NCBI RefSeq assembly: GCF_016899425.1
Contig: NZ_CP045995.1
Span: 2,790,001 to 2,854,000, forward strand
Origin: Burkholderia sp. MS389
GTDB lineage: Bacteria; Pseudomonadota; Gammaproteobacteria; Burkholderiales; Burkholderiaceae
DNA: 64,000 nucleotides
Direction of reading: 5' to 3'
The position numbers and the translations under genes are program-made. Under the pieces are notes generated by a model. It searched no databases. It had not been told where the DNA came from and worked only from the letters and a program-made list of their open reading frames with translations. Positions 37,179-41,648 of this stretch are shown here, piece by piece (position 1 is the first letter of the stretch; each line of letters starts with the position of its first letter).

Positions 37179-39896
37179 TTACGCTGCGAGCAGCGAGCGC
37201 AGCACGAACGGCAGGATCCCGCCGTGCTTGTAGTAATCGACTTCGATCGGCGTATCGATGCGCAGCAGCACCGGCACACGCTGCGTTTCGCCGTTCTTGC
37301 GGTGAATCACGAGCGTGACGTCCTGCTGCGGCTTGAAGTCGTCGCCGAGGCCTTCGATGTCGTACGTCTCTTCGCCGGTGATGCCGAGCGACTGCACGCT
37401 GTCCGCGCCCTTGAACTGCAGCGGCAGCACGCCCATGCCGACCAGGTTCGAGCGGTGGATCCGCTCGAAGCTGCGTGCGATCACGGCCTTCACGCCGAGC
37501 AGTTGCGTGCCCTTCGCGGCCCAGTCGCGCGACGAGCCCGTGCCGTACTCTTCGCCCGCGAACACGACGGTCGGCGTGCCGGCGGCGACGTACTGCATCG
37601 CCGCATCGTAGATCGACTGCTGTTCGCCGCTCGGCTGGTGGATCGTCAGGCCGCCTTCGACGCGCGTGCCGTCCGCCTTCGCCGGGATCATCAGGTTCTT
37701 GATCCGGACGTTCGCGAACGTGCCGCGCATCATCACGTCGTGGTTGCCGCGGCGCGAGCCGTAGCTGTTGAAGTCGGCCTTCTGCACGCCGTTTTCCTTC
37801 AGCCACTTGCCTGCCGGCGAGTCTTCCTTGATCGAGCCTGCCGGGCTGATGTGGTCGGTCGTGACCGAATCGCCGAAGATGCCCAGCGCGCGCGCGCCCT
37901 TGACGGTCGGGATCGACGCAGCCGGCTCCATCGAGAAGTCGTTGCCGAAGAACGGCGGCTCGGCGATGTAGGTCGACTTCGGCCAGTCGTAGACCTCGCC
38001 CGTCTCACCCTCGATCTTGCTCCAGAGGTCGCCCTTCTTGGTCAGCTTCGAGTAGTTGTCCTCGAACTTCTTCGGATCGAGCGCGAACTTGAGCAGCGCG
38101 TGGATTTCATCGCTCGTCGGCCAGATGTCGCCGAGGTAGATGTCGCGGCCGCCCTTGCCCTTGCCGACCGGCTCGGTCATCAGGTCGCGCGTGATGTTGC
38201 CGGCGATCGCGTACGCGACGACGAGCGGCGGCGACGCGAGGAAGTTCGCGCGGATGTTCGGGTGGATACGCGCTTCGAAGTTACGGTTGCCCGACAGCAC
38301 GGCCGCCGCGACGATGTCGTTCTTCGTGATCGCTTCGTTCAGTTCCGGCGTCAGGTCGCCCGCGTTGCCGATACAGGTCGTGCAGCCGTACGCCGCGACT
38401 TCGAAGCCGAGCTTCGACAGGTAGGGCAGCAGGCCCGTCTTCGTCAGGTACTCGGTGACGATGCGCGATCCCGGCGCGAGCGAGGTCTTGATCTTCGGGT
38501 CGACCGTGAGGCCGGCCTCGACCGCCTTCTTCGCGAGCAGGCCGGCGGCCAGCAGCACGCTCGGGTTCGACGTGTTCGTGCACGACGTGATCGCGGCGAT
38601 CAGGATGTCGCCGTTCTTCACGTCGACGCCGTTGCTCGTCGTGTACTGCGTGCCCAGGTCGTCCGCCTTCTTCGCGAAACCGTTTTCCGCGACCGGCTTC
38701 GAGAACAGGTCGGTGAACGTCGACTTGACGTGGCCGATCTCGATGCGGTCCTGCGGGCGCTTCGGGCCGGCCAGCGACGGCGCGACCGTCGTCAGATCCA
38801 GCGTCACGACCTTCGTGTAGTCGATGTCGCCGGCGTTCGGGATGCCGAACAGGTTCTGCGCCTTGAAGTAGTTTTCGAACGCGGCGATTTCGGCCTTCGT
38901 GCGGCCCGTGCCTTCGAAGTAGTCGATCGTCTTTTCGTCGACCGGGAAGAAGCCCATCGTCGCGCCGTATTCCGGCGCCATGTTGCCGATCGTCGCGCGG
39001 TCCGGCAGCGACAGCGAGCGCGTGCCTTCGCCGAAGAACTCGACGAACTTGCCGACGACCTTCTCCTTGCGCAGCATTTCGGTGATCGTCAGCACCAGGT
39101 CGGTGGCCGTCACGCCCTCGCGCAGCTTGCCCTTCAGCTCGACGCCGACGACGTCCGGCGTCAGGAAGTACACCGGCTGGCCGAGCATGCCGGCTTCCGC
39201 CTCGATGCCGCCCACGCCCCAGCCGACCACGCCGATGCCGTTGATCATCGTCGTGTGGCTGTCCGTGCCGACGAGGGTGTCCGGATAGTACACGGTGTCG
39301 GCGCCGTCGGACTTCTTGTGGACGCCGCGCGCCAGATACTCGAGGTTCACCTGGTGGACGATGCCCACGCCCGGCGGCACGACCTTGAACGTGTCGAACG
39401 CCTGCATGCCCCACTTCATGAACTGGTAGCGCTCGTTGTTGCGCTGGAATTCCAGCTTCATGTTCAGGTCGAGCGCGTCCTTCTGGCGGAAGTAGTCGAT
39501 CTGGACCGAGTGGTCGACGACGAGATCGACCGGGACCAGCGGTTCGATCTTCTTCGGGTTCTTGCCCGTGCGCTCGGCGACGCCGCGCATGGCCGCGATG
39601 TCGGCGAGCAGCGGCACGCCCGTGAAATCCTGCAGCACGACGCGCGACACGACGAACGGAATCTCGTCGACGCGCTTCGCGGTCGGCTTCCAGTTCGCGA
39701 GCTGCTCGATGTGCTCTTCGGTGATTTTCTTGCCGTCGTAGTTGCGCAGCACGGACTCGAGCACGATGCGGATCGACACCGGCAGGCGTTCGATCTTCGT
39801 CTTCAGTTCCTTGCCGAGCTGCGGCAGCGAGTAGAACTTGCCTTTGCCGGAACCGCTGTCGAATTCCTTGAGGGTCTTGTGGAGATTGTGGGCCAT
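37179..39896 (-). CDS. acnA: Aconitate hydratase A
   Basis: A 905-residue [4Fe-4S] aconitase that interconverts citrate and isocitrate. It starts at the ATG at 39896 ([20 protein letters not shown]). Cluster cysteines lie in [16 protein letters not shown] and [13 protein letters not shown]. The substrate-binding region [17 protein letters not shown] and the C-terminal swivel domain ([16 protein letters not shown]) are intact. The length is typical of AcnA/IRP1-type enzymes. An unusual 251-bp palindromic element begins 51 bp upstream of its start. It is followed by a terminator. Confidence 0.97.
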
Positions 39897-39947
39897 GGTG
39901 ATTTTCCTGGGTTTAAGGCTAGGAAACAAAGAGTCCTGTAGATGACC

Positions 39948-40198
39948 AGGGGGCTGTTTGCGGATGAAACGGACATGCGTTGCCCCGAGAAAGGCCGCTC
40001 GCAAGGAGCGTGACGCAGCGAGCGGCCTTTCTCGGGGCAACCCCAAATTTAAAATTTATTCCACGGGAATGCCCCAAATCGGCCGCATGACGGCGTCGTT
40101 CGTCGCTTGTTTGGCACGGCCAAACGGCGCTCCTCACTTCTTGTCCTGCGACCGATTTGGGGCATTCGCATGTCCGTTTCATCCGCAAACAGCCCCCT
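39948..40198. repeat. 251-bp element with 32-bp terminal inverted repeats and nested hairpins
   Basis: The ends are perfect 32-bp inverted repeats (39948-39979 and 40167-40198, starting AGGGGGCTGTTTGCGGATGA). Inside are two further hairpins. One is a perfect 23-bp stem at 39980-40002 and 40018-40040 with a 15-base loop. The other has 16-bp arms at 40067-40082 and 40152-40167, with a smaller 7-bp hairpin at 40109-40115 and 40119-40125 in its loop. The two internal hairpins are linked by an A/T-rich stretch (AAATTTAAAATTT). The whole can fold as a three-way junction in DNA or RNA. It lies between prpD and acnA; its right end supplies the first two bases of the prpD stop codon on the plus strand. 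No transposase gene and no obvious target duplication were seen. A MITE, a regulatory leader or an invertible segment are possible. Confidence 0.85.
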
Positions 40199-41648
40199 AT
40201 ATCACATACAAGTCGACGTACTCATCGACCGGCATCGCTTCGAGCTTTGCCTGGTCCAGCGACACGTCGAGAATCGCTTGTTGCTGCTTGGCCGGGAAAC
40301 GGCGGGCAAGGTTGGTCCGGAACTTCTCGACCAGGAGCGGGACGCCTTCGGCACGGCGCCGCCGATGGCCGAGCGGATACTCGACCGCCACTTCGGCAAG
40401 CTTCGATCCGTCCGTGAACTCGACCGTCAGCGCATTCGCGATCGATCGCTTGTCCGGATCGTGGTAATCCTGCGTGAACTGCGGATCCTCGACGCACACG
40501 GTTTTCGCGCGCAGCGCGTCGATGCGCGGGTCCGCCGCGGCCGCGTCTTCGTAGTCGGCCGCGGTCAGCCGGCCGAACAGCAGCGGCACGGCGACCATGT
40601 ACTGGATGCAGTGGTCGCGGTCGGCCGGATTGGCGAGCGGGCCCTGCTTGTCGATGATGCGGAGCGCGGCCGCGTGCGTGCGGATCGTGATCCGGCCGAT
40701 GTCGTCGGCCGTGCGGCCCGCCGCGGCGAGCTGCGCATGCAGCTGCAGCGCGGCCTCGGCGGCCGTCTGCGCATGGAATTCGGCGGGGAACGCGATCTTG
40801 AACAGCACGTTTTCCATCACGTACGTGCCGTACGGGCGCTGGAAGCGGAACGGCTTGCCGTCGAACAGCACGTCGTAGAAGCCCCACGTCCTGGCGGTGA
40901 GCGCCGACGGATAGCCCATTTCACCCGTTTTCGCGATCAGCGCGAGGCGCACCGCGCGGGACGTCGCGTCGCCGGCCGCCCAGGATTTGCGCGAACCGGT
41001 GTTCGGCGCATGGCGGTAGGTCCGCAGCGCGTGGCCGTCAATGAATGCGTTGGACACCGCGTTGATCAGCTCGTCGCGCGTGAGCCCGAGCAGGCGCCCG
41101 ACGACGGCCGTCGACGCGACCTTCACGAGCAGCACATGGTCGAGCCCGACCGCGTTGAATGAATTCTCGAGGGCGAGGCAGCCCTGGATCTCGTGGGCCT
41201 GGATCATCGCGACCAGCACGTCGCGCATCGCGAGCGGCTGGCGGCCGGCCGCGCGGGCCGTGCGGGAGAGCCAGTCGGCCGTCGCCAGGATCCCGCCGAG
41301 GTTGTCGGACGGATGACCCCATTCGGCGGCGAGCCAGGTGTCGTTGAAGTCCAGCCAGCGGATCATCGCGCCGATGCCGAACGCGGCCTGGACGGGATCG
41401 AGCTGGAAGGACGTGCCGGGCACCTTCGCGCCGTTCGGCACGATCGTGCCGGGCACGACGGGGCCGAGCAGCTTGGTGCAGGCAGGGTAGGACAGCGCCT
41501 CGAGTCCGCATCCGAGCGTGTCGATCAGGCAATGACGCGCCGTCTCCAGCGCGAGCGCGCTGTCGAGGCCGGTGTTCAGCACGTAGTCGACGATGTCGAC
41601 GAGTACCGAATCCGGCGCGGGGCGGACGTTGGAGACCGGGGCGGACAT
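40197..41648 (-). CDS. prpD: 2-methylcitrate dehydratase (PrpD, MmgE/PrpD family)
   Basis: A 483-residue enzyme of propionate breakdown (methylcitrate cycle) that dehydrates 2-methylcitrate. PrpD motifs are visible: [40 protein letters not shown] and [20 protein letters not shown]. The length equals that of typical PrpD. No prpB or prpC gene is nearby; here the gene sits with acnA, mdh and other TCA genes. Its TAG stop overlaps the end of the 251-bp palindromic element, so the last residues (YVI) border that element. Confidence 0.93.

Follow-up and report, generated by a model that had tools for sequence, protein, structure and literature searches.

A MITE-like nested palindromic repeat of Burkholderia found beside acnA, with arms probably kept complementary largely at the DNA level

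A nested palindrome between acnA and an MmgE/PrpD-family gene

In the window (the whole 64,000-bp stretch of DNA that was analysed), a nested palindrome of 251 bp (39948-40198) lies beside acnA, placed between the stop codon of an MmgE/PrpD-family gene and the acnA start, with both genes on the minus strand. The genes and the parts of the element are as follows:

37179..39896, minus strand: acnA, aconitase (Pfam Aconitase and Aconitase_C), with its ATG at 39896-39894, 51 bp from the element
39947..39948, plus strand: junction bases, where CA replaces the GGC of the empty site
39948..39979, plus strand: left outer (terminal) arm, of the family form GGG(T/G/C)CTGTT...GCG, its exact end ambiguous by 1-3 bases
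39979..40041, plus strand: hairpin B, 24 perfect pairs (39979-40002 with 40018-40041)
40042..40066, plus strand: AT-rich linker between hairpins B and A, the part that varies most across the family (mean column entropy 0.93 bits)
40067..40167, plus strand: hairpin A, with a 16-bp stem (40067-40082 with 40152-40167)
40083..40151, plus strand: loop of hairpin A (mean column entropy 0.28 bits), with an inner stem (40109-40115 with 40119-40125)
40167..40198, plus strand: right outer (terminal) arm, perfectly complementary to the left arm
40197..41648, minus strand: MmgE/PrpD-family gene, whose TAG stop (40197-40199) is overlapped by the last two bases of the right outer arm

The outer arms are perfect 32-bp inverted repeats, as a preliminary description of this DNA had proposed, and the second hairpin was likewise recovered with the 16-bp arms it had been given, its stem sitting inside a 30-bp, 87% complementary pair (40062-40091/40143-40172). 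The first hairpin has the perfect stem that was described, but with 24 pairs rather than the 23 bp assigned to 39980-40040, and although it does adjoin the left outer arm, the two are not simply flush, since base 39979 is common to both. Folding of 39938-40208 gave -178.7 kcal/mol; 200 dinucleotide shuffles averaged -92.1 (sd 5.4), and none was as low (z = -16). The nested anatomy is genuine and lies well outside what chance would produce. Several mechanically called open reading frames cross the element, but nothing indicates that any of them is a gene, which agrees with the earlier statement that no protein gene explains it. The element is short and lacks a transposase gene, and the family's size (177-336 bp in the copies read) is too small for one.

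The loop of hairpin B is about 36 bases longer in the majority of other full copies and there holds an extra small hairpin (GAATAC..GTATTC), which was probably deleted between short repeats in the window copy. Mean column entropy is as low in the right arm of hairpin B as in the loop of hairpin A, and reaches 0.61-0.68 bits in the outer and A stems. Because the loop of hairpin A is so well conserved in comparison with the linker, there is a hint that it might be a bound or recognised sequence. By eye, the loops of hairpins B and A (e.g., 40003-40017 and 40126-40151) share GCAAGGAG-like motifs or their complement, from which it is plausible, by eye only, that the two halves are repeats of one unit.

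A query with the acnA start against 61 genomes yielded 30 loci that could be read, to which a B. stagnalis record was added. Because 27 of these 31 MmgE/PrpD-acnA junctions lack the element, mostly with about 52 bp between the two genes, its presence in the other four (the element's own genome, G036, G015 and B. stagnalis) represents an insertion into a previously short gap. Since the top matches to the element outside its own genome are the acnA-junction copies of G036 and G015 (384 and 356 bits), ranking above the best copy at another locus (in G028; 330 bits, 89% identity), and since the B. stagnalis copy at the same junction is 93% identical to that of the window, the resemblance points, short of proof, to a single old insertion that was later lost or exchanged in some lineages. 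An empty site reads GAC-GGC-TATATC and the window copy GAC-CA-GGGGG...CCCCC-TATATC; more generally, empty GACGGCTATATC matches occupied GAC-NN-GGGGG...CCCCC-TATATC, the left junction bases varying among carriers (CA, AA or CT), and a clean duplication is absent. Just upstream of acnA (39938-39946, and in the orthologues L038-L068), GTAGATGAC alternates with GTATCTGAC between genomes, a difference that amounts to the exact inversion of four bases (AGAT/ATCT) and occurs in occupied and empty sites alike.

The preliminary description had also raised the possibility of an invertible segment. Opposite interior orientations within the same flanks do occur between strains at two sites (L090/L151 versus L216, and L140 versus L196), neither of them at acnA, and either an old inversion or an independent insertion at one site could have produced them; on an evolutionary timescale, slow inversion or re-insertion is possible. 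A switch controlling acnA, however, is extremely improbable: the element is missing from most acnA loci read, the five acnA-junction rows (four distinct copies) share a single orientation, and a flip would change little because the outer arms are symmetric. The 25 same-site groups assembled below are single-orientation by construction, as only same-orientation flanks were joined.

A dispersed family with a preference for TA targets

The genome search that had been proposed for dispersed copies with variable flanks found them, in a gathered set of 126 rows at 86 distinct loci, at least 12 of the rows being the same copy present in two collections. The element's own genome (7.75 Mb, three contigs) contains 31 HSPs to it, and end patterns reveal further ends. 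Matches were obtained in 34 of the 61 genomes searched (own included), comprising 33 of the 37 within its genus and one marginal match (E 0.008) outside. A plasmid collection, chromids included, holds eight matching records from Burkholderia, Paraburkholderia and Caballeronia, and a 32-base end query against plasmids recovered six records with 16 places. With one genome per species for 84,980 species, a 28-base pattern from the conserved loop matched 94 stretches, and the 80 of these that were listed all belong to Burkholderia, Paraburkholderia or Trinickia.

The family ends in GGGTCTGTTTAC and GGGCCTGTTCACGC, and comprises two subfamilies told apart by their ends (GGGTCTGTTTACATATGGAACG... 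and GGGCCTGTTCACGCTAATAACGGG...). Shortened copies of 177-194 bp have lost one hairpin. Ends were detected at 53 of 61 loci in a first set (eight dropped) and at 77 of 80 in a later one (three dropped), and the terminal arms match at 28-30 of 30 bases in 75 of 77 copies. Copies lie upstream or downstream of genes or between divergent or convergent ones, some of them just upstream of genes, in a survey whose gene picking skipped reading frames that run through the element.

The sequence TA flanks both ends at 49 of the 86 distinct loci (scored as the two bases on either side of GGG...CCC), with TA making up 1.5% of flank dinucleotides. The target TA is often part of a CTAG or TTAA, and some targets fall at a stop codon. 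There is, then, a preference for a TA target. When 12 copies from the element's own genome were used as queries, 20 empty loci were fetched for eight of them, and for the other four (L002, L004, L008 and L075) none was among the matches listed. Two of the eight copies (L005 and L076) show the clean gain of a 2-bp TA upon insertion; L074 was inserted without duplication, the flanks of L003, L007 and L073 are altered or ambiguous relative to the empty loci, and L006, L072 and one of the two empty loci for L076 are not cleanly readable, with L111 unaligned at the junction. The two flanks are complementary more often than expected at positions 1-3 (84, 67 and 53 of 86 loci) but not at position 4 (22 of 86 versus 23.7 expected), where a CTAG-like target ends; the preference for palindromic targets explains part of this. 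Dispersed copies, variable flanks, empty sites and the TA target all uphold the MITE-like mobile element that had been suggested.

Neither a survey of IS630-type transposases nor searches with end patterns turned up a transposase carrying the family's ends, and for this reason we call the element MITE-like rather than a proven MITE. In a classical MITE, the repeat would have arisen by deletion from one particular element of the IS630 or IS5 type, amplified from few master copies, and its arms would match only through youth. The TA target with its CTAG preference, the terminal inverted repeats, the two subfamilies with distinct arms and one stem mismatch common to 18 loci are all in accord with such an origin. 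However, IS630-type transposases (PF13358) occur in 10 of 41 genomes of the genus (17 matches) and are absent from the element's own genome. Ends of subfamily 1 lie near just one of the 17, and there they belong to a whole copy of the repeat adjoining an IS630 with other ends. End patterns without the known interior matched in 9 of 398 genomes of the family, giving only shortened copies, L131 (described below) and chance matches, and in the 61 genomes no long pair was among the matches listed, which were mostly ordinary copies, with one mismatch allowed. Youth would, moreover, leave unexplained the compensated changes seen at the same site in different species (see below), and we regard this origin as unlikely. 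In the one adjoining case (G019 contig C9, ~171564-172700; L116/L025), the IS630-family element has the ends GTGTTCCGTCCCAGAAATAA and abuts the repeat directly; because it sits at the copy's own CTAG, the two use the same kind of target.

Paired changes in the arms

Among 120 of the 126 rows (those of at least 240 bp), 4663 of 4748 stem entries are Watson-Crick (98.2%), with each combination of locus, column and pair type counted once and the B stem of subfamily-2 rows (39 of the 120) left out. The remaining entries are G.T (45, of which 18 fall in one column), A.C (18) and others (22), such that G.T exceeds A.C by 45 to 18 with the 18-locus column, and by 27 to 18 (p = 0.23) once it is set aside. 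We also aligned 23 copies, hand-picked from 45 of full length after removal of duplicate loci (L083, L085, L086 and L091), in which 98.7% of cells in 79 pairs are able to pair: 27 of these pairs are changed on both sides, 42 are invariant and 10 depart only by unpaired cells, whereas standard changes on one side are limited to eight cells in two pairs. None of 500 shuffles, which keep the relatedness of the copies, attained any of five pairing measures (the structure being drawn from the same sequences), and sliding the partners by 1-3 columns lowered pairing to 28-43%.

Copies that share a site across strains or species allow changes to be followed at a single locus. We initially formed 25 such groups, which gave 34 types of single mismatch and 1647 invariant pairs, with 0.27 doubles expected; six contained one copy in two collections, and removing these together with misaligned subfamily-2 B-stem columns left 19 groups, each with at least two distinct copies. 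Across their 1196 pairs there are 20 compensated doubles, 32 singles and 1144 invariant pairs, as against 0.36 doubles expected if the two sides changed independently. Twelve of the doubles are transversions and eight are transitions, a transversion share close to the one for unpaired regions (80 of 184, counted in the 25 groups). Some copies have uncorrected single changes (L005/L028 and L023/L069), and the mismatches among the singles are of 33 types (17 G.T, 8 A.C and 8 other). Beyond the element itself, among the three flanking positions per side, three pairs changed jointly (TA/TA to CA/TG in L203 versus L027, TA/TA to GA/TC in L177 versus L084, and A/T to G/C in L087 versus L089) and 12 changed singly. 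In several groups the stems have changed less than the unpaired parts at the same locus; between L010 and L068, for example, there is one difference among the 69 stem pairs for which both rows have letters, compared with 18 among 111 unpaired bases.

These patterns bear upon whether the element is a structured RNA (a leader, a 3' end stabiliser or an sRNA) whose stems would be kept by selection on the transcript. The very stable fold, the strong covariation in the stems, the conserved loop of hairpin A and the lesser change of stems than of unpaired parts in several same-locus groups are as such an RNA would have them, as are the predominance of G.T among same-site mismatches, which the RNA model also leads one to expect, and the coincidence of one end of the copy with the stop codon of a picked reading frame in 10 of 49 copies (seven distinct loci). 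However, only four of the 31 acnA loci read carry the element, copies occur in contexts of every kind, and the whole window contains no Rfam match at gathering score (four weak sub-threshold matches, best E 0.29). The acnA intergenic stretch has no promoter-like site and a single, weak terminator-like one. G-U pairs are few overall, and the asymmetry between G.T and A.C is not significant without the one shared column. Changes of a stem by way of G-U would give transitions, but most of the same-site doubles are transversions, for which G-U is no intermediate. An RNA of this kind thus seems quite unlikely. As for the leader for acnA put forward in the preliminary description, it is not supported, given the empty junctions, the Rfam result and the lack of a clear excess of G.U over A.C; the compensatory stem changes anticipated alongside it were found, but not the confinement of the copy to the region upstream of acnA.

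Upkeep of the palindrome and its relation to known repeats

We consider the element to be, most likely, a non-autonomous, protein-free, mobile palindromic (MITE-like) repeat of Burkholderia and its relatives, whose arms are kept complementary largely at the DNA level. A transposase acting in trans would move it by its terminal arms, and its arms would then be kept complementary after insertion, again largely at the DNA level: during replication, a strand would fold back onto the opposite arm and copy it (quasipalindrome template switching), so that a change arising in one arm would be lost again or else passed on to its partner, the copying sometimes reaching the palindromic target bases. Such switching would let stems drift between copies while staying nearly perfectly paired within each, and judging from the comparisons above, the co-evolution of the arms appears to fit arm-to-arm copying better than an RNA under selection. 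Any effect on acnA would be a by-product of the element.

Some of the evidence runs counter to arm correction, in that singles outnumber doubles both in the stems (32 versus 20) and in the flanks (12 versus 3 joint). The lower rate of change in stems than in unpaired parts is predicted by selection and not by neutral correction alone, and part of the matching of the arms may accordingly be due to purifying selection or to recombination among copies. Another copy, by recombining with the resident one or inserting anew, could be the source of some of the doubles.

Template switching has been proposed as a source of compensated changes in RNA stems, and its action at quasipalindromes is described as well studied in microbes (Monttinen and Loytynoja, 2022; PMC8794818, in the sections available). 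The hairpin maintenance set out in those sections resembles ours in that one arm is copied and changes are compensated, but it concerns RNA genes, whereas we propose it for a dispersed intergenic DNA element and, at times, for the bases of its target site. Compensated base changes are usually taken as proof of a functional RNA; in this family much of the compensated change looks like a by-product of replication, which calls for caution before such repeats are declared RNAs. With more than 80 loci, same-site comparisons across species and built-in controls (the target bases in the flanks, transversions, and G.T versus A.C), the family could make the upkeep of long perfect palindromes in bacterial genomes directly testable.

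Integron attC sites are recognised as folded DNA, with shape rather than stem sequence being inherited. By analogy, the folded three-way junction might itself be the unit that is recognised, through the loop of hairpin A, and copied, each cycle rewriting one arm so that shape and not stem sequence is passed on. We view this idea as speculative and very doubtful; if true, it would bring attC-like inheritance of shape to a mobile repeat that stands alone.

Bacterial MITEs with TA ends include Correia/NEMIS, RUP and ERIC/RU-1, and the accessible portion of PMC2229807 presents these, like our element, as short, non-coding and dispersed, with terminal inverted repeats. Unlike them, the element described here is longer, forms a nested three-way palindrome with two inner hairpins, is not AT-rich overall, has arms that co-vary within a copy, and yielded no partner transposase in the IS630-type and end-pattern searches. 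The Yersinia repeat YPAL/RU-2, as covered in the same portion of that source, is similarly palindromic, not AT-rich and intergenic, with empty and filled sites, but it lacks TA ends, contains inverted repeats in its interior and comes with duplications of 3-26 bp. The REP, BIME and REPIN elements of RAYT transposases are also dispersed extragenic palindromes; REPs, however, measure 20-40 bp and are tagged GTAG or CGTC (PMC3733652, in the text available), and we rejected this identity given the size of our copies and, by eye, the lack of a recurring GTAG or CGTC tag at the ends of those listed. No description of the palindromic family was found in the open-licence literature, which is weak evidence, with ISfinder and most subscription journals outside that scope. 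Burkholderia is unmentioned in the accessible parts of PMC2229807, PMC10969869 and PMC1590033, which deal with bacterial repeats and stem-loops, and no such repeat surfaced under the terms searched in the accessible parts of PMC4603805, on transcription starts of B. cenocepacia. With this family, an intensively studied genus gains a mobile repeat that seems to have gone unannotated.

Several unusual copies were noted along the way. At 11975-12028 of contig C11 in G007, L131 is a solo outer palindrome from which both inner hairpins are gone. Among viral contigs, two of 35-36 kb (L233 and L234) carry the conserved loop pattern, and two stretches match an 18-base end. Six copies (L004, L005, L034, L035, L196 and L216) have a palindromic insert of ~27 bases (GTCCCC...GGGGAC) near the foot of hairpin A, and this insert occurs in copies of both subfamilies.
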